Of a stretch of 37,718 nt of DNA, positions 4,830 to 12,941 are shown piece after piece (position 1 is the stretch's first letter; each line of letters starts with the position of its first letter). The position numbers were made by a program, and so were the translations under genes. The stretch covers positions 1-37,718 of the forward strand of contig NZ_VDFY01000099.1 of assembly GCF_006228125.1 (NCBI RefSeq), in the 5' to 3' direction. Source of the stretch: Micromonospora orduensis. Its GTDB lineage: Bacteria > Actinomycetota > Actinomycetes > Mycobacteriales > Micromonosporaceae. Under the pieces are notes generated by a model that was given only the letters and a program-made list of their open reading frames with translations, was not told the origin of the DNA and searched no databases.

Positions 4830-5636
4830 TCAGAACGAGGTGACGCGCCGGAAGCTGTTGGCGCGCAGGAGGGTCAGGGTGGCCAGCACGACCGTGACGA
4901 CGGCCCAACCGCCGGTGGCCGCCGGCTGGAGGAGCACCGGAAGTTCGGCGGTGGCGAGGCTGGGCGCGACCACGGCCGCGGCCCAGGCCGCCATCAGGCC
5001 GACCGCGGCGCGGTGGACGCCGACGAGGGAGCCGAGCAGCAGCGTCGCGGCGGTGAAGGCCAGGCACGGCAGCAGCATCAGCGCCAGGTCCGCCCGGCTG
5101 TCCCCGAGGACGGCGAACGCGGCGAGCACCGGGATGACGAGGACGAGCACCACGGCGGTGCGGCGCAGCAGCATCGTCAGGCCCGCCGAGGGGGTGCCGA
5201 CGATCAGCTCCCAGGCCGGGTCGCCGCGTCTGCTCCAGGCAGCCGCGACCCCGGGCAGCGGCGCCAGGGGCGCGAGCAGCAACACGATCGACGGCAACTC
5301 GGACAGGAAGTACGTGAGCACTGCCGCGGTGCCGAGCACGCCGGCGGTCATGGCGACCCACGGCAGCAGCGCCGCCACGAACCAGCGCTGCCGCACCGGC
5401 GTACGGAAGAAGCTCCTGGATCGTGGGGCGGGGCCGGCGGCGATCCCACGGTCGACGGCTGCCGCGACCTCGGCGACCAGGGCGCGCGACTCGGCGGTGG
5501 TGCTGCCGGCCAGGCGCGCGCGGCAGTCCGCGCAGGTCTCCAGGTGCACCTCGATCGACCAGACGGTCGCCTCGTCGAGGCCGGGATCGCCGTCGGCGTA
5601 GCGGTCGATCTCGTTCAGGGTGGGATGCGTGGTCAT
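4830..5636 (-). CDS. Anti-sigma factor with zf-HC2 domain and multi-helix membrane domain
   Basis: A 268-residue protein. Residues 1-45 form a zinc-finger anti-sigma domain with the H-x3-C-x2-C signature (EVHLETCADCRA) that binds and silences ECF sigma factors in the cytoplasm. From about residue 85 the protein has roughly six hydrophobic helices, far more than the single helix of most ZAS proteins, and an internal loop (WSRRGDPAWELIVGTP). Its start overlaps the sigma gene stop (ATGA at 5633-5636), giving equimolar coupled synthesis. The membrane part could sense envelope damage or contact the ABC exporter encoded 12 bp downstream; that link is inference from gene order. Confidence 0.85.
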   Translation of the reverse strand: MTTHPTLNEIDRYADGDPGLDEATVWSIEVHLETCADCRARLAGSTTAESRALVAEVAAAVDRGIAAGPAPRSRSFFRTPVRQRWFVAALLPWVAMTAGVLGTAAVLTYFLSELPSIVLLLAPLAPLPGVAAAWSRRGDPAWELIVGTPSAGLTMLLRRTAVVLVLVIPVLAAFAVLGDSRADLALMLLPCLAFTAATLLLGSLVGVHRAAVGLMAAWAAAVVAPSLATAELPVLLQPAATGGWAVVTVVLATLTLLRANSFRRVTSF

Positions 5637-6184
5637 GACAGTGCCTCCCGCAGGACGATCCGGGCGCGGCGGATCCGGGACTTGACGGTGTTCTCGGGTA
5701 CGCCCAGCAGCACGGACGTCTCGCGCACGGTGAAGCCGTCGAGGACTGTGGCGCGCAGCACCGCCCGGACCTCGGGAGGCAGCACGGCGAGCGCCTGTTC
5801 GAGTTCCTGCCCGACGCGGCCGGCCAGCACCTCGTCCTCGGCGGCGGGTACGACCGTCTCGACCTGGTGCACCTGCGGCGTCCGGGCCTGCCGGGAGCGA
5901 CGCCGGAACGCGTCGACCAGGCGGTGCGCGGCGATGGTCCACAACCAGCCGACGGCGCTGCCGCTGACCTGGTCGCCGGCGAAGCTGCCGGCCGCCCGCC
6001 AGAGGGTCAGGTAGGTCTCCTGGAGGACGTCGGCGACCACGTCCGCATCGGCGCACCGACGCCGCAGCCGCACCTCCAGCCAGGGCGCGGTACGCCGGTA
6101 CAGCTCGTCGAAGGCCCGCCGGTCACCGTGGGCCACGCGACGTACGAGTTCCTGCTCGTCGGCCGCGTCCAGACTTCGTCTCAC
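5633..6184 (-). CDS. ECF-type RNA polymerase sigma factor
   Basis: A 183-residue group IV sigma factor. Region sigma-2 spans about residues 25-90, with ADVLQETYLTLWR (core binding) and WLWTIAAHRLVDAFRRR (minus-10 recognition). Region sigma-4 spans about 125-180, with the helix-turn-helix FTVRETSVLLGVPENTVKSR. The GTG at 6184 is used because the adjacent ATG at 6186 is immediately followed by TGA in its frame. No strong ribosome site precedes it, so a leaderless transcript is possible. It heads an operon with its anti-sigma factor and an ABC exporter. Autoregulation is expected for the class but was not shown here. Confidence 0.93.
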   Translation of the reverse strand: MRRSLDAADEQELVRRVAHGDRRAFDELYRRTAPWLEVRLRRRCADADVVADVLQETYLTLWRAAGSFAGDQVSGSAVGWLWTIAAHRLVDAFRRRSRQARTPQVHQVETVVPAAEDEVLAGRVGQELEQALAVLPPEVRAVLRATVLDGFTVRETSVLLGVPENTVKSRIRRARIVLREALS

Positions 6185-6273: not shown

Positions 6274-6303
6274 TTGCACGCCCCCCGGGTCGGCTGGTTA
6301 GGT
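6274..6303 (+). promoter_or_regulatory. Candidate sigma-70-type promoter for the argS leader
   Basis: TTGCAC (6274-6279) and TTAGGT (6298-6303) are separated by 18 bp, a fair match to housekeeping -35 and -10 boxes. The predicted start would fall at about 6309-6311, on or next to the ATG of the Arg-rich leader ORF. That would make the leader transcript leaderless, a common actinobacterial arrangement that allows immediate ribosome loading. Prediction only. Confidence 0.45.
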
Positions 6304-6310
6304 TGACGCC

Positions 6311-6400
6311 ATGTCCAGCTCGTACGCGTTCCCGACGGCGTCCACTGACGTCCTGTTCGGCGCGCTGCGACGCCGGCGGTCCTGCGACCGCCCGCGCTGA
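6311..6400 (+). CDS. Candidate Arg-rich leader peptide of the argS attenuator
   Basis: A 29-codon ORF (ATG 6311, TGA 6398-6400) whose last ten residues contain six arginines, including four in a row (codons CGA CGC CGG CGG at 6368-6379), ending R-P-R. It lies directly upstream of the arginyl-tRNA synthetase gene and just after a plausible promoter. Slow decoding of these codons when charged Arg-tRNA is scarce would fit the logic of ribosome-mediated attenuation. Caution: out-of-frame GC-rich DNA often encodes Arg runs, so translation needs evidence. A weak AGG sits 8 nt before the ATG; a leaderless start is equally possible. Confidence 0.5.
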   Translation: MSSSYAFPTASTDVLFGALRRRRSCDRPR

Positions 6401-6440
6401 GCATTCCTCACCTGCGACCGGCGGATCGAGCCGCCGGTCG
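6375..6440 (+). promoter_or_regulatory. Candidate attenuator: competing hairpins after the Arg-rich leader
   Basis: Four segments can pair in the classic order. Strand 1 (GGCGGTC, 6375-6381, inside the Arg codons) pairs with strand 2 (GACCGCC, 6386-6392) over a CTGC loop. Strand 2 can instead pair with strand 3 (GGCGG-A-TC, 6420-6427) with one bulge. Strand 3 with its flank (6415-6424) pairs perfectly over 10 bp with strand 4 (6431-6440) around an ATCGAG loop. The 3:4 helix would be the terminator or blocking form, but no U-run follows. A further 7-bp hairpin (GATCCGC/GCGGATC, 6480-6498) lies 20 nt before the argS start. All pairings were found by eye. Confidence 0.45.
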
Positions 6441-6518
6441 TCACCGATCGTCCTCGGTCCGCCCGCATCCCCTTCCGGTGATCCGCGAGCGGCGGATCCG
6501 AGCGAGATCGGCGTACCC

Positions 6519-8237
6519 ATGGATCTGGAAAAGCTGCTGACCGACCGGCTGGCGCCGGCGTTCGCGACGGTGGCCGGCGTACCGGTGAACCCGGTCGTGC
6601 GGCGGTCTCCGCGCGCGGACTTCCAGTCCGACGCGGCGCTCGCGCTGGCCCGGCGGCTCGGCCGGCCGCCGCGCGACATCGCGGCCGAGGTGCTGGGGTA
6701 CGCGGACCTGGCCGACGTGTGCAGCGTCGCGGAGGTGTCCGGGCCGGGCTTTCTCAACCTGACAGTCGCCGACGCGGCCCTGGCCGCGCTGGTGTCCGCG
6801 CTCGCCACCGACCCCCGGCTGGGTGTGCCGGTGACCGCCGAACCGGAGACCGTGGTCATCGACTACTCGGCGCCGAACGTGGCGAAGGAGATGCACGTCG
6901 GCCACCTGCGCTCGACGGTCATCGGCGACGCGGCGGCCCGGCTGCTGGAGTGGCTGGGGCACCGGGTGCTGCGGGCCAATCACCTGGGCGACTGGGGCAC
7001 GCCCTTCGGCATGCTGATCGAGCATCTGGCCGATCTGGGCGAGGCCGAGGCCGCTCACGAGCTGTCCATGGGGGACCTGGACTCGTTCTACAAGGCGGCT
7101 CGGGCGAAGTTCGACGCCGACGGGGCGTTCGCCGAGCGGTCCCGGCTGCGGGTGGTGGCCCTGCAGGGCGGCGATCCGGTGACCCTGCGGCTGTGGCGGC
7201 TGCTGGTGGAGCAGTCCGAGCGGTACTTCATGACCGTGTACGACAGGCTCGACGTCACCCTCACCGAGCGGGACTTCCACGGCGAGAGCAGCTACAACGA
7301 CCTGCTCGCGCCGGTGGTCGACGACCTGGGTCGGCTCGGGCTGCTGCGCGAGAGCGACGGCGCGGCCTGTGTGTTCCCGCCCGGTTCGGTGGGCCGGGAC
7401 GGCGAGCCACTGCCGCTGATCGTGCGCAAGTCCGACGGCGGGTACGGCTACCCGGCCACCGACCTGGCGGCGATCCGGCAGCGGACCGGCGCGCTGGGCG
7501 CGACCCGCCTGCTCTACGTGGTTGGGCTGCCGCAACGGCGGCACTTCGAGATGGTGTACGCCGTCGCCGCGCAGGCCGGCTGGCTGTCCCCGCCGGCCCG
7601 GGCCGAGCATGTCGGGTTCGGCTCGATCCTCGGAGCGGACGGGCGGATGCTGCGCAGCCGGGCCGGCGGGTCGGTGAAGCTGGTCGGCCTGCTGGATGAG
7701 GCGATCTCCCGGGCGACCGCCCTGGCCCGGGAGCGGAACCCGGAGCTGGGCGAGGCGGAGGCGGCCGAGGTGGGCCGGGCCGTCGGCATCGGCGCGATCA
7801 AGTACGCCGACCTGTCCAACGACCGGCACCGGGACTACGTGCTCGACTGGGAGCGGATGCTGTCCCTGGACGGCAACACCGCGCCCTACCTCCAGTACGC
7901 GTACTCCCGGATCCGGTCCATCTTCCGGCGGGCCGGGATGGCTGCCCGGCCGGACGCGGCCGTCTCGCTGGCCGAGCCGGCGGAGCGGGCGCTCGCCTTC
8001 GAGCTGGTCGGCTTCGGCCGGGTGGTCGGCGAGGTGGCGGAGAACCTGGAGTTCCATCACCTCGCCGGCTACCTGTACCGGCTGGCCGCGGCCTTCAGCG
8101 CGTTCTACGAACGGTGTCCGGTGCTGCGGGCCGACGAGCCGGTCCGGGACAGCCGGCTGGTGCTCTGCGACCTGACCGCCCAGGTGCTCCGGCAGGGGCT
8201 GCACCTGCTCGGCATCCGAACCCCCGAACGGATGTGA
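6519..8237 (+). CDS. argS: Arginyl-tRNA synthetase, likely auxiliary copy
   Basis: A 572-residue class I aminoacyl-tRNA synthetase that charges tRNA-Arg with arginine in the cytoplasm. The N-terminal Add-1-like domain precedes the HIGH-type signature MHVGHLRSTVIGDA (His126-His129), then NHLGDWGTPFGM. The KMSKS-equivalent loop is DGRMLRSRAG (near Met377), which lacks a canonical second lysine, as is usual for ArgRS. An all-helical DALR anticodon-binding domain ends the protein. The MHVGHLRST subtype differs from the form I associate with the main actinobacterial argS, and the usual lysA/hom neighbours are missing, so a second copy elsewhere in the genome is likely (inference). ATG 6519 is favoured by domain start; its ribosome site is weak. 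Confidence 0.92.
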   Translation: MDLEKLLTDRLAPAFATVAGVPVNPVVRRSPRADFQSDAALALARRLGRPPRDIAAEVLGYADLADVCSVAEVSGPGFLNLTVADAALAALVSALATDPRLGVPVTAEPETVVIDYSAPNVAKEMHVGHLRSTVIGDAAARLLEWLGHRVLRANHLGDWGTPFGMLIEHLADLGEAEAAHELSMGDLDSFYKAARAKFDADGAFAERSRLRVVALQGGDPVTLRLWRLLVEQSERYFMTVYDRLDVTLTERDFHGESSYNDLLAPVVDDLGRLGLLRESDGAACVFPPGSVGRDGEPLPLIVRKSDGGYGYPATDLAAIRQRTGALGATRLLYVVGLPQRRHFEMVYAVAAQAGWLSPPARAEHVGFGSILGADGRMLRSRAGGSVKLVGLLDEAISRATALARERNPELGEAEAAEVGRAVGIGAIKYADLSNDRHRDYVLDWERMLSLDGNTAPYLQYAYSRIRSIFRRAGMAARPDAAVSLAEPAERALAFELVGFGRVVGEVAENLEFHHLAGYLYRLAAAFSAFYERCPVLRADEPVRDSRLVLCDLTAQVLRQGLHLLGIRTPERM

Positions 8238-8345
8238 GCGGAGGTCCGCAGCCTGGCGCCGACGGCCGACGTAGCTATCCTCTTCAGGTGCTGGTCCGTG
8301 TGGAGATCGTTGACACGGGTCCGGCACTGCGAAGGGACTTTCGAC

Positions 8346-9116
8346 ATGCCCCGTGTGGTACCGGCGGTCATCCGCGCGCTCGACGTCCTCGAACTGTTCC
8401 TGGACCACCCACAACTGTCGGCCCGCCAGGTGATGGAGCGGCTCGATCTGCCCCGCACCACCGTCCACGAACTGCTCGTCACGCTCGAAGCCCGCTCGTA
8501 CCTGATCTCCGTACCGGGTCAGCCGGTGCAGTATCGGCTCGGCATGCCGCTGTTCCAGCTGGGCGCGGCGTTCGCCGGCCGGCTTGACCTGGTACGCGAG
8601 GCGCAGGGCGTCGCGCGGGACGTGGCCGCCAAGTGCGACGAGGCGGTTCATGTGGCGGTGCTCGACGGCGCCGATGTCATCTACCTCGTCAAGTTCGACA
8701 GCACCCACCCGGTTCGGATGGTCTCCGGCGTCGGGTTGCGGCTGCCGGCCCACTGCACGGCGGTCGGCAAGATCCTGCTGTCGGGTCTCGGTAAGGCGGA
8801 CCTGGACGCCGTCCTGCTGAAGGACCCCCTGCCGGGCATGACGCCGGACAGCATCACCGACCCCGATCGTCTACGCGAACATCTCGAACGTGTCCGCGCG
8901 GAGGACGTCGCGGTGGACATCGGCGAGTCCGACAGTGCCATGCGCTGCGTCGCCGCAGCGGTCCGGGACCATTCCGGCGCCATCATCGCTGGGATGAGCC
9001 TTTCCGCGCCGATCATCCGCTGGACGCCGCAGGCGCAGGTGGAGTGGACCGGGCTGGTTCGTGAGGGCGCAGCCGCGCTCTCCACCCGCATGGGCTACCG
9101 GGCGCAGCCCCGATAA
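8346..9116 (+). CDS. IclR-family transcriptional regulator
   Basis: A 256-residue regulator. An N-terminal winged helix-turn-helix (about residues 5-65, with LSARQVMERLDLPRTTVHELLVTLE) is followed by the IclR effector-binding domain, containing HCTAVGKILLS and the C-terminal GIAAPI-like segment IAGMSLSAPIIRW. ATG 8346 is preceded by GAAGGGA at 8 nt. The gene sits just ahead of a sugar-type ABC importer whose promoter carries palindromic sites, so it most likely controls that importer in response to its substrate. A TTGACA lies upstream at 8310-8315 within a CCGTGT/ACACGG inverted repeat (8296-8318), which could be an autoregulatory site. Confidence 0.92.
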   Translation: MPRVVPAVIRALDVLELFLDHPQLSARQVMERLDLPRTTVHELLVTLEARSYLISVPGQPVQYRLGMPLFQLGAAFAGRLDLVREAQGVARDVAAKCDEAVHVAVLDGADVIYLVKFDSTHPVRMVSGVGLRLPAHCTAVGKILLSGLGKADLDAVLLKDPLPGMTPDSITDPDRLREHLERVRAEDVAVDIGESDSAMRCVAAAVRDHSGAIIAGMSLSAPIIRWTPQAQVEWTGLVREGAAALSTRMGYRAQPR

Positions 9117-9231: not shown

Positions 9232-9477
9232 GGCGGTGGTCCCGTGACCCGACCGAACTGGAACGTCAGCGCCACTGTCTCGGCCCGGTCGCCGATCGCC
9301 CTGGCCTCGTCGCGCCACTCGGCGTGCGGCACCGGCAACCCACGAACGAGCTGATCCCGACGGATGGCCGTCCGTGGTCGCCACCAAGAACCCAACTGGA
9401 ACACAACCATCGCGGTGTTCGCCAGGTAGGCCTTCGGCGTGCAGCCGTGCGCGGGCAGATGAAGGAGGCGAGTGTCC

Positions 9478-10908
9478 ATGAAGGACAACCCGATGTGGTC
9501 TCGGCGCGGCTTTCTGGGGATGGGGGTGGGAGTGCTCGGCGCGGCCGGTCTGGGCGCGTGTGGAGGCGAATCCGAATCGCCGACCAGGGTGCAGCCGGAA
9601 GTCCCGCAGGAGCTCATCGACGCCGCCGCGGCGATGAAGGGCTCCTCGATGGGGATGCTGTCGCAGAAGCTGTACTCGACGGCGGCGAACGACGCCCTCG
9701 ACAGCTCGATCAAGAAGTTCGCCGACACCACCGGGACGAAGATCGAGAACAGTCTCGTCCAGGCCGACGCCGGTGACGTGGTGGCCAAGATCGACGCCGA
9801 GGTCAAGGGCGGGGTGGCCCGTGACCTGGCGTTCATGACCGACTCACGGTTCGTCGCGCAGTTCCAGGCGCTCGGCGACCTGGAGGACGTGACGGACGTC
9901 GTGCAGGCGCTGACCGCCAAGTACGGCGAGCCCTGCGCCGAGGCCAAGAACTTCTGCGTCTTCGACGGCAGGTGGTTCGCGATCCCGTACCACTTCATCG
10001 GTATCGGGTCGTTCCTGCGCAAGGACTGGATGAAGGACAAGGGCATCACCCCCAAGGACATCTACAGCTGGGAGGAGCTGCGCGACCTCTGCCTGGAGAT
10101 CTCCGATCCGGCCAAACGCCGGTTCGGCTGGGGCATGACGGTGAACCGGTCCGGTGACGGCAACGGCATGATCGAGGCCCTGATCAACGCGTACGGCGGG
10201 TCGATCGCCTCCAACGACGGTAGGAAGGTCACGTTCGACTCCCCCGAGACGGTGCAGGCGGTGGCCTTCCTGGGCGACATCTACACCAATTCCAGGTACA
10301 AGCGGATGCTGCCGCCGGGGGTCGCCAGCTGGACCGACACCAGCAACAACGAGAACTGGCTCGCCGGGATCCTCGGCTACACCCGCAACCAGTTCAGCGT
10401 CTACGCGGACTCCCGGACCAAGAAGAACCCGGTGTACGCGAACACCCACGTCTTCTCCGACTGCATCGGGCCGGCGACCAACAATCCCCTGCTGCTCGGC
10501 CAGTCGCAGGGTTTCGTCGTCTTCAAGGGCGCGAAGAACCCGGCGCTCGCCAAGCTCCTGGCGCAGTACCTAGTCAGCGCGCCCGCGCTGCTCGGGGTGG
10601 CGAAGGAGGCACCCGGCCTGGTGATGCCGGCCTGGGAGAAGGTCTGGGACGCCGACCCGTTCTTCACCAGTGGCGACCCGGCGTTCCCCATGCTGCGCAA
10701 GATCACCGAACTGAAGCTGCCGCTGAACACGAAGAACGGCCTGGCCTTCCCGCAGAAGGCCAGCGCGGGCCAGCAGGCCGTCGGCGCGGCCTACGTGCTC
10801 ACCGACATGATGCAGCAGGTCGTGCAGGGCACCGCGCCGGCGCAGGCCGTGAAGGCGGCCCACGCGAAGATGGTGCAGATCTTCAACCAGCAGGGGCTGC
10901 CGCAGTGA
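9478..10908 (+). CDS. ABC importer extracellular solute-binding lipoprotein
   Basis: A 476-residue type-1 solute-binding protein of the sugar-transport group. Its N-terminus has a twin-arginine motif (SRRGFLG) and a lipobox LGAC, so it is predicted to be exported by Tat and lipid-anchored outside the membrane. The mature part shows typical alternating alpha/beta segments, such as GGSIASNDGRKVTFDSP and the VKAAHAKMVQIFNQQ tail helix. ATG 9478 is chosen over GTG 9472 because the GAAGGAGG ribosome site is then 9 nt away. Its TGA overlaps the GTG of the permease gene. The ligand cannot be read from sequence. Transcription probably starts at the promoter near 9155-9190. Confidence 0.9.
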   Translation: MKDNPMWSRRGFLGMGVGVLGAAGLGACGGESESPTRVQPEVPQELIDAAAAMKGSSMGMLSQKLYSTAANDALDSSIKKFADTTGTKIENSLVQADAGDVVAKIDAEVKGGVARDLAFMTDSRFVAQFQALGDLEDVTDVVQALTAKYGEPCAEAKNFCVFDGRWFAIPYHFIGIGSFLRKDWMKDKGITPKDIYSWEELRDLCLEISDPAKRRFGWGMTVNRSGDGNGMIEALINAYGGSIASNDGRKVTFDSPETVQAVAFLGDIYTNSRYKRMLPPGVASWTDTSNNENWLAGILGYTRNQFSVYADSRTKKNPVYANTHVFSDCIGPATNNPLLLGQSQGFVVFKGAKNPALAKLLAQYLVSAPALLGVAKEAPGLVMPAWEKVWDADPFFTSGDPAFPMLRKITELKLPLNTKNGLAFPQKASAGQQAVGAAYVLTDMMQQVVQGTAPAQAVKAAHAKMVQIFNQQGLPQ

Positions 10909-12941
10909 GGTCGGTCCGTCCCGCGCGGGTCCCGGCGGCGAGGAAGTCCCCGCCGCCGGGACCCGGCTCTCTCACGGCGACCCAGCGGCGGCTGGGTCGT
11001 GACTGGCGACTGGCCGCACTGTTCCTCGCACCCATGGCCGTACTGGTCGGCGGCCTCGTCCTCGTGCCGATCGCCCGGTCGATCATCACCAGCACCACGG
11101 AACGACACGGGCAGGACACCGTGTTCGTCGGCGCGGACAACTACCTCGCCCTCATCGGCGACGAGCAGTTCCACACGGGCGTGGTGAACTCGTTCGTCTT
11201 CACCGCGTACGCCGAGATCTTCAAGGTGGTGCTGGGGCTGGCCGCGGCCCTGCTGCTGCACCACCGGCGCCGTGGGCGGGCCGTGCTGGCCGGGCTGCTC
11301 CTGGTGCCGTGGGTGGTGCCGACGGTGGTGACGGCGTTCAGCTGGCGCGCGCTGCTCGACCCGATCTTCGGCAGCGTCAACACCCTGCTCACCGCCACCG
11401 GGATCGGGCCGCTGCTGGCCAGCGCGCACCTGGTCGACAGCTGGCCGGCGGGCTGGCTGTCCGACCCGTCGCTGGCCATGCCGTCGGTGATCCTCGTCAA
11501 CGTCTGGAAGGGCGTGCCCTTCTTCACCGTGTGTTTCCTCGCGGGGTTAAAGGCCATCCCGGCGGACCTCTACGAGGCGGCGACCATCGACGGCGCCTCC
11601 TCGTGGCAGCGGTTCGTCAACGTGACGCTGCCCGGCCTCCGCCACGTGATCACCGTGACGGTCACCCTGTCGTCGATCTGGACGTTCAACAACTTCGACC
11701 TCGTCTGGTTGCTGACCCAGGGCGGCCCGGGCGACGTGACCGCGCCGTACGTGCTGGTCGCGTACTCGAAGGCGATTCTGCAGTTGCAGTACGGCGCCGG
11801 CGCGGCGGTCACGCTCGTCATGCTGCCGATCATCGGCGGGCTGGTGTTCGTCCTGGTCCGGTTGCTGCGCCAGGACACCGGCATCAAACTGCCGAGGCGA
11901 CGCCGGTCGGCACTGTGGCTCGGGACGCGGCGGTGGGCCGGGACGGCGCGCAGGGCGCTGCCGTGGGTCGTCGCCGCGGTGGTCACCGGCCTGCTGGCCT
12001 GGGCATCGCCACAGATCTTCTGGAAGGCGGCGGTCGTCCTCGGGGTGATCCTGCTGATCGCGGCGGCGGTCGGCCGGGTGGTCTCGACCCTGAACGCCCG
12101 GGGCGGTCGCCGGTCGTCGTCAGTCGTGTCGGGCCTGGGGTCCTGGGTCGCGCTGGCCGGGTTGCTCTTCTTCGTGCTGGGCCCGCTGTACTGGATCGCC
12201 GTCACGGCCTTCAAGTCCGAGGGCCAGGTCGTCATGCGCACCGACGACCTGTGGCCGACGCCGTGGACCATGGAGCAGTTCAGCGCCCTGTTCGCCAACC
12301 AGCCGTTCGGTCGCTGGTACCTCAACACCCTGCTGGTGTCCGCGGCGTCCACGGCGGTGGCGCTGGTCTGCGCCGCCCTGGCGGGATACGCGCTGGCCCG
12401 GCTGCGGTTCCGCGGGGCGCAGGGCTTCACCGTCACGGTGCTGCTCACCTACGTGATGCCGGGCGCGCTGCTGTTCATCCCGCTGTACCAGATGCTCATC
12501 GGCGCGCGGCTCACCGACTCGTTGTGGTCGCTGGTGGTGACGTACCCGACCTTCACGCTGCCGTTCGCCACCTGGCTGCTGGTCGGCTACTTCTCGTCGA
12601 TCCCCGTCGAGCTGGAGGAGGCCGCGCTTGTCGACGGCTGCACCCGCATCCAGGCGTTCGGCCGGGTGGTGCTGCCGCTGGCCAAGCCGGGGCTGCTGGC
12701 CGTCGCCCTCTTCACCCTGACCAACGCCTGGAACGAATTCCTCTTCGCATTCGTGTTCATCACGAAGGACGAGTACAAGACGCTCCCCGTGGGGATGCAG
12801 TCGATGATCGCCGGAGACGTCGTACCGCAGGGACAACTCGCCGCGGCGTCGCTGCTCGTCAGCATCCCCGTGGTCATCATGTACGCCCTCGGGCAGCGCT
12901 TCCTCACCGATGGCCTCACCGCCGGCGCGGTGAAGGGCTGA
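10905..12941 (+). CDS. Fused MalF-MalG-like ABC sugar permease (single chain)
   Basis: A 678-residue protein that joins both permease halves of a carbohydrate ABC importer. The first half (about residues 35-325) has the EAA loop EAATIDGASSWQRFVNVTLP. The second half (about 415-678) has its own, EAALVDGCTRIQAFGRVVLP, and the MalG-like N-terminus PLYWIAVTAFKS. Between them are a basic linker and two extra hydrophobic helices (about 345-395). These two subunits are normally encoded separately. GTG 10905 overlaps the binding-protein stop (GTGA). No ATPase is encoded nearby, so a shared MsiK-like ATPase elsewhere is assumed. No stop or frameshift is visible at the junction. Confidence 0.9.
   Translation: MRSVRPARVPAARKSPPPGPGSLTATQRRLGRDWRLAALFLAPMAVLVGGLVLVPIARSIITSTTERHGQDTVFVGADNYLALIGDEQFHTGVVNSFVFTAYAEIFKVVLGLAAALLLHHRRRGRAVLAGLLLVPWVVPTVVTAFSWRALLDPIFGSVNTLLTATGIGPLLASAHLVDSWPAGWLSDPSLAMPSVILVNVWKGVPFFTVCFLAGLKAIPADLYEAATIDGASSWQRFVNVTLPGLRHVITVTVTLSSIWTFNNFDLVWLLTQGGPGDVTAPYVLVAYSKAILQLQYGAGAAVTLVMLPIIGGLVFVLVRLLRQDTGIKLPRRRRSALWLGTRRWAGTARRALPWVVAAVVTGLLAWASPQIFWKAAVVLGVILLIAAAVGRVVSTLNARGGRRSSSVVSGLGSWVALAGLLFFVLGPLYWIAVTAFKSEGQVVMRTDDLWPTPWTMEQFSALFANQPFGRWYLNTLLVSAASTAVALVCAALAGYALARLRFRGAQGFTVTVLLTYVMPGALLFIPLYQMLIGARLTDSLWSLVVTYPTFTLPFATWLLVGYFSSIPVELEEAALVDGCTRIQAFGRVVLPLAKPGLLAVALFTLTNAWNEFLFAFVFITKDEYKTLPVGMQSMIAGDVVPQGQLAAASLLVSIPVVIMYALGQRFLTDGLTAGAVKG

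Follow-up and report, generated by a model that had tools for sequence, protein, structure and literature searches.

The short Arg-rich open reading frame (ORF) upstream of an auxiliary arginyl-tRNA synthetase gene (argS) of Micromonospora orduensis probably acts as a sensor of charged Arg-tRNA, in which a ribosome stalled on the Arg codons would refold the downstream RNA so that argS is expressed. This reading is built on the recurrence of the ORF across genera with its Arg run in frame, on a marked bias toward the codon CGA, and on a set of RNA helices which partly covary. The window, i.e., the whole stretch of DNA that was analyzed, comprises 37,718 nt (contig NZ_VDFY01000099.1), and the leader and argS both lie on its forward strand. 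From the sequence we would expect leaderless transcription and translation of the ORF, stalling of ribosomes on the CGA-led Arg run when charged Arg-tRNA is low, a change in the fold of the RNA downstream, and induction of argS through release of its ribosome-binding region.

Leader ORF and Auxiliary argS

The leader ORF runs from an ATG at 6311 to a TGA ending at 6400 (peptide MSSSYAFPTASTDVLFGALRRRRSCDRPR) and has the 29 codons that the original prediction had assigned to it, with six Arg among the final 10 residues, four of which are consecutive (CGA CGC CGG CGG, 6368-6379); its stop lies 118 nt from the argS ATG at 6519, again as had been claimed. The sequence itself, the codon counts and the frame test described below point to this Arg run, with CGA first, as the predicted stall site. 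Both halves of a proposed promoter-like pair are present (TTGCAC, 6274-6279, and TAGGTT, 6299-6304), although a scan of the window region with a strict sigma-70 consensus gave no promoter match at the leader. A TANNNT motif is also found 5-8 nt 5' of the leader start in relatives. As only 6 nt separate TAGGTT from the leader ATG, a leaderless transcript is predicted.

The argS gene (6519-8237) encodes a protein of 572 aa which matches the arginyl-tRNA synthetase profile TIGR00456 with 446.7 bits. It is one of two ArgRS genes in the genome, the second of which matches the window ArgRS in two segments of 27% and 40% identity. No short ORF was found within 320 nt upstream of this other argS by the same relaxed ORF search, and by eye the gene starts at a GTG right behind a -10-like box. 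An ArgRS match of some kind was present in each of 101 sampled genomes of the genus; among the matches listed, the auxiliary type (69-94% identity) occurred in many but not all of them, a third type (52-55% identity) in at least 10, and only distant ArgRS or fragments in the remainder. This patchy presence beside another ArgRS marks the window argS as an auxiliary gene. In a family-wide sample, 227 out of 300 genomes gave a match at E <= 1e-80.

The neighbors of the locus are a gene for an ECF sigma factor on the reverse strand (5633-6184), an IclR-type regulator (8298-9116), and a solute-binding protein with ABC permease domains (9472-12941), and no connection of these three genes to arginine was seen. 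The window gave no match to any Rfam family at the gathering score, the T-box covariance model included, nor did a tRNA search of the window. While there was no trpS match in the window, one was present near argS in 44 of the fetched loci; in all four of those with more than 180 nt upstream of trpS (L098, L100, L104, and L157) this gene is preceded by a candidate Trp leader, a leaderless ORF ending in RFRAG(G/A)RW (coordinates in L098: 3044-3211 and 3301-4359).

Distribution of the Leader

A strict definition of the leader was used for the survey of relatives, consisting of TANNNT, a gap of 5-8 nt, an ATG or GTG, and a short ORF in which six residues near the end hold three Arg or more. Among 249 loci whose upstream sequence spanned 250 nt or more, 140 had such a leader, a count in which some genomes were fetched twice. 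In distinct upstream regions grouped by ArgRS identity to the window, it was present in 76/84 at 76% or above, in 5/14 at 72-76%, in 49/77 at 60-72%, and in 0/59 below 60%, and the comparison of orthologous argS genes thus shows an Arg-rich leader recurring across genera of the Micromonosporaceae. The peptides differ by lineage between Micromonospora, Actinoplanes, and Catellatospora, as illustrated by MTSSHAFPTASPDVLFGALRRRRSRDRLR, MFCFSVRRRRPHGRR (Actinoplanes xinjiangensis), MHSINRERRRTTTLRLS, and MFPAVVCAGLCGRVVVRRPGRVVVIERRRIVAAR (Catellatospora coxensis).

The misses of the strict search are heterogeneous. One group consists of relatives outside the Micromonosporaceae, including many Acidimicrobiia and myxobacteria assembled from metagenomes, and a second is the lineage of 52-55% ArgRS identity (L074-L083; about 53%), where a leader is present but not of the strict leaderless type. 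This lineage has its own Arg-rich leader, which ends in CGA CGA CGA TAG in 10/10 loci and is followed by an inverted repeat, with GGAG close 5' of the likely start in nine out of 10 (by eye). A clade of about 65-71% identity is devoid of the leader (L068-L071, L107, L108, L190, L191, L193, and L195-L199); in the Micromonospora loci L068-L071, which were read individually, a -10-like TANNNT stands directly 5' of the argS ATG. Salinispora-type loci carry two adjacent and three total Arg (MSSIELRRTVLDRLS and variants), and the gltX-linked loci described below form a further group. Among single misses, the leader appears by eye to be deleted in L186, the -10 is altered and the leader intact in L025 and L101, and L084 is a broken locus with a truncated argS and a frameshifted leader.

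A covariance model of the leader matched 47 out of 61 genomes of the genus at E <= 0.01, with 46 strong matches (E < 1e-6) across 45 of them; some of the 61 genomes had supplied the model itself, and stricter filters were applied. All 46 strong matches are linked to the auxiliary gene, 43 ending at argS2 starts and three adjoining argS remnants (G001, G029, and G034). Of five weaker matches, three are the opposite strand of leaders and two (G004 and G012) apparently fall inside longer reading frames. The argS remnants L288, L289, and L290 retain the whole or part of the leader motif.

Reading Frame and Codon Choice

The spacing between leader start and Arg run is divisible by three in 82 out of 83 loci measured at >=76% identity, with six different in-frame lengths between 51 and 72 nt. 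The sole exception, at 55 nt, is the out-of-frame leader of L084. The 83 loci are those out of 93 with a recognizable Arg-run motif and start; 10 were left out (L025, L052, L055, L060, L085, L091, L101, and L231-L233), one of which, L091, does carry RRRR in frame but with bases that escape the search pattern. As in known attenuators, the leader is therefore a short ORF with a run of cognate codons to which the frame is kept in relatives. In 43 distinct 29-codon leaders Arg20, Arg21, Arg27, and Arg29 are invariant, Arg22 and Arg23 have one exception each, and codons 20 and 21 are always CGA then CGC. It should be noted that third codon positions vary least (0.045 vs. 0.124 and 0.104), a pattern unlike that expected of a typical coding sequence. 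RRR occurs in 114 and RRRR in 84 of 121 distinct selected leaders, figures that are inflated by selection since the leaders had been chosen as Arg-rich; of 19 leaderless-like ORFs found as controls elsewhere in 97 loci, five also pass the loose Arg filter and none contains RRR.

Codon choice sets the leader apart from the gene that it precedes. Across the 140 loci, Arg is encoded by CGA in 24% of cases in the leader vs. 1% in the first 100 or so argS codons, by CGC in 48% vs. 24%, and by CGG in 23% vs. 67%. Five loci, Catellatospora-type among them, have a CGA CGA CGA run, so that Arg is kept and the bases changed. By the wobble rules CGA, CGC, and CGT share one tRNA and CGG is read by another, and the leader thus likely reads mainly the CGA/CGC/CGT tRNA. 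The arginine-sensing half of the original prediction is supported by the in-frame Arg leader across genera, by the enrichment in the rare codon CGA, and by the strong model matches at auxiliary argS genes or their remnants.

RNA Secondary Structure

The 220-nt leader is more stable than each of 200 shuffled sequences (z -3.44), and the best perfect hairpin 3' of the leader stop outdoes all 20 shuffles in 83 out of 118 distinct loci. Four strands had been proposed for the window locus. Strand 1 (6375-6381) pairs as claimed with 6386-6392, with 76% of alignment cells paired and double changes at four of seven pairs. Strand 2 (6385-6392), at the end of the leader, can pair with strand 3 over 8 bp around the single bulge expected, and is compatible in 95-96% of cells with nearly no covariation. 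The perfect 3:4 stem exists but has 11 bp and not 10 (6414-6424 with 6431-6441, around the 6-nt loop AUCGAG at 6425-6430), and folding, alignments and the swap test agree on it. To these we add three strands which extend to the argS start region and were absent from the original prediction. Strand 5 (6444-6463) has, by the alignments and the swap test, two alternative predicted partners, namely strand 3 plus the hairpin loop (6420-6430 with 6453-6463) and strand 7 (6491-6511), which on the evidence of the alignments holds the predicted argS ribosome-binding region GAGCGAGAU. Strand 6 (6480-6486) would be an alternative partner for strand 7 (at 6492-6498) that leaves the predicted binding site open; its seven double-changed cells in 34 representative leaders fall at a single pair.

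In 88 distinct Micromonospora-type leaders 3:4 is paired in 92%, 2:3 in 96%, 3:5 in 98%, 5:7 in 90-95%, and 6:7 in 95% of cases, with 24 double-changed cells over four of the seven pairs of 6:7. In the 34 representatives the total for helices 3:5 and 6:7 is 10 double-changed cells vs. 2.3 in shuffles (reached by 0/500), these being confined to two pairs, a number which 120/500 shuffles reach. The set 1:2, 3:4, and 5:7 has six double-changed pairs (seven cells) vs. 1.7 in shuffles (0/500), but a control with the partners slid by -3 gave seven pairs and 13 cells, i.e., more than the real structure. In the same representatives 5:7 is paired in 91-96%, and 2:3 is compatible in 95% with one double-changed cell in 272. 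Single folds of 31 Actinoplanes-type leaders commonly contain a stem over the Arg run, formed between the stop region and the codons that follow the start, as well as a hairpin behind the stop and pairing beside the argS start.

Helices were further compared by a species-swap test, in which the pairing energy of each species is set against that with swapped partners; its statistics ignore relatedness. For the 31 Actinoplanes-type leaders z was -5.2 for the leader stem, -6.2 for 3:4, -2.2 for 3:5, -2.1 for loop:5, -2.0 for 5:7, and +1.3 for 2:3 (controls: 4:7 -0.2, 1:3 +1.1, 2:5 +1.8, and 2:7 +0.9), and for 24 Micromonospora-type leaders it was -6.0 for 3:4, -2.9 for 3:5, -2.6 for loop:5, -1.0 for 5/6:7, and -0.5 for 2:3 (control 4:7 +2.6). 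Pooling of the 55 gave -9.7 for 3:4, -6.4 for 3:5, -6.9 for loop:5, -5.1 for 5/6:7, and +0.4 for 2:3 (control 4:7 -1.2), values which partly reflect divergence at genus level, the signals of 3:5 and 5:7 within single groups being weak (z -1.0 to -2.9). A pseudoknot between strand 5 and the loop of 3:4 has support equal to that of the full 3:5 pairing, and the swap test does not separate the two. Comparison of pairing energies with dinucleotide shuffles, which is not decisive in GC-rich sequence, gave median z values over 103 loci of -0.75 for 2:3, -1.24 for 3:5, and -1.23 for 5:7, and Alifold on two alignments returned chiefly the 3:4 hairpin plus fragments. Helix covariation therefore extends to the leader stem, to 3:4 and, in the pooled data, to the strands linking 3:4 to the argS ribosome-binding region, but hardly at all to 2:3. 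Strands 2 and 3 barely vary, so this lack does not refute 2:3.

Termination or Translation as the Output

Those alternative strands that are backed by comparison of relatives lead to the argS start region, and for this reason we favor control at argS translation, acting through that region, rather than at termination. Two simpler forms of such a switch were considered and rejected. Minimum free energy (MFE) folding of the full leader gave 3:4 plus 5:7, the latter covering the argS start region, whether the ribosome was absent, stalled or at the stop codon; this identical final structure in every masked state argues against an equilibrium switch and means that the switch, if any, must be kinetic. 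Blocking of 3:4 by a ribosome at the stop codon was rejected as well, the hairpin beginning 8-17 nt past the stop in 123 out of the 127 loci which have one (13 of the 140 had none), about where the edge of a ribosome is generally placed. In folding of the growing transcript with a stalled ribosome 2:3 formed first, then 3:4, and then 3:5 and 2:7, while with the ribosome at the stop 3:5 was seen with 6:7 at one transcript length.

The main rival is termination at 3:4, whether Rho takes part in it or not. The original prediction was of classical transcription attenuation, in which a stalled ribosome masks strand 1, 2:3 forms, and the 3:4 terminator is avoided, an explanation that we consider rather unlikely. 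Its geometry is sound by commonly assumed footprint lengths, in that a stall at 6368 would free strand 2 and a ribosome at the stop would cover it, 2:3 is compatible in nearly all cells, and with a stalled ribosome and the transcript ending at 6428-6436 it appears in the MFE structure. Once strand 4 is made, however, 2:3 gives way to 3:4, and in the swap test 2:3 behaves as a null pairing. Moreover, 3:4 does not resemble an intrinsic terminator: between the leader stop and argS a run of at least five U occurs in 0/140 loci and UUUU in seven, the 8 nt after each of the 127 hairpins contain at most four U, and no terminator-like site was found in the window region. The 2:3 antiterminator is thus not supported by these data, although the leader trpL2 of S. 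lividans is described as likewise devoid of a U-rich tail (PMC8079986).

A variant in which access of Rho to the C-rich RNA that separates strands 5 and 6 would depend on the translation state of the leader accommodates this missing terminator, and Rho is active at the Arg-codon leader of Salmonella speF (PMC6386406). The C-rich stretch seen by eye at about 6452-6477 can also be accounted for by the pairing strands; the Rho site is putative and this variant improbable. Still less probable is re-initiation, in which a constitutive leader ORF would boost argS translation and sense nothing; leader genes have been proposed to work in this manner (PMC4833913), but the stop-to-start gaps are 40-131 nt and mostly contain strong hairpins, and the enrichment in Arg and CGA would be left unexplained. 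Finally, that the ORF is a product of chance in GC-rich DNA, the conserved part being merely RNA structure or promoter region, would suit the loosely Arg-rich controls and the low third-position variation but is hardly credible given the absence of RRR from all controls, the kept frame, and the retention of Arg across genera though other residues and codons change. The leader ORF is thus confirmed at the level of sequence, and frame and conservation argue against an accident of GC content.

gltX-Linked Loci

In seven loci (L052, L055, L060, L178, L180, L181, and L233) a frame of gltX, the glutamyl-tRNA synthetase gene, ends 124-129 nt 5' of argS with GRERT(L/V)ARLRAALDRLS and a stop, so that the C-terminal Arg codons of gltX sit at the leader position and are followed by the same hairpins. 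The gltX piece of L055 matches TIGR00464 with 235 bits. A second gltX is present in each of these genomes; the four copies that were fetched (L284-L287) end in LRAARxRL(P/F) and a stop. In L231 and L232, which belong to one genome, gltX is reduced to a remnant of 73 codons, and a gltX copy has thus decayed at the leader position. Short leaders with a recognizable GltX tail were detected at L065 (E 1.6e-7) and at the G001 remnant L288 (E 2.5e-6), both in small local search sets, with weaker resemblance at L020, L073, and L157 (2.5e-4). In a tree of 178 ArgRS sequences the gltX-linked loci are nested among short-leader lineages, which means either that the leader derived from gltX or that a gltX copy became joined to the leader. 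The clade is of interest as an instance of kinship between a leader peptide and the end of the gene beside it. As a tentative extension, which we hold to be possible though somewhat doubtful, a family-wide class of Arg-tRNA sensors may guard auxiliary ArgRS genes, with a leaderless peptide that reads the rare codon CGA and a ladder of repeated strands that ends at the argS ribosome-binding site and not at a terminator, the leader of one lineage being the tail of a decayed second gltX.

Comparison with Known Systems

T-box riboswitches sense uncharged tRNA upstream of aminoacyl-tRNA synthetase genes, whereas the sensor of the argS leader would be an ORF. Another parallel is the auxiliary, indolmycin-resistant trpS of S. 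coelicolor, also an auxiliary synthetase gene under leader control, though for a different synthetase. If the sensor reading is true, the window argS, being a spare copy, is likely a back-up against shortage or inhibition of ArgRS; we know of no inhibitor in this case.

The attenuators described for trpS, leuS, alaS, and thrS of Streptomyces likewise consist of a short ORF with cognate codons before the synthetase gene; several of these ORFs are leaderless, and a U-tract is missing from some of the attenuators (PMC8079986; PMC1262725). The argS leader fits this class, as originally suggested, and differs, as far as these accounts go, in its amino acid, and also in strands which extend to the start region of the gene. 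T-boxes at arginine genes of other bacteria are mentioned in PMC1262725, which describes the arginine operons of the actinobacteria covered there as having no conserved upstream RNA structure. The original prediction cited no described example for argS, and a literature search of titles and abstract beginnings among the matches listed, with most subscription papers outside its scope, likewise returned no Arg leader before argS. If the sensor is real, the leader peptides upstream of actinobacterial synthetase genes include one for arginine, in addition to the amino acids already described. The enrichment of CGA in more than 100 leaders makes it possible to put the selective-charging theory of regulatory codon choice (PMC1183508) directly to the test.

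A mechanistic counterpart is the Salmonella speF leader orf34, which has consecutive Arg codons at which ribosomes pause when arginine is low, a hairpin immediately 3' of its stop codon, and a downstream ribosome-binding site that is either masked or open (PMC6386406). It controls an ornithine decarboxylase in a gamma-proteobacterium through a different peptide, and the rarity of its Arg codons is reported to be without effect (PMC6386406). Corresponding steps are predicted from sequence for the argS leader and supported by experiment for speF (PMC6386406).
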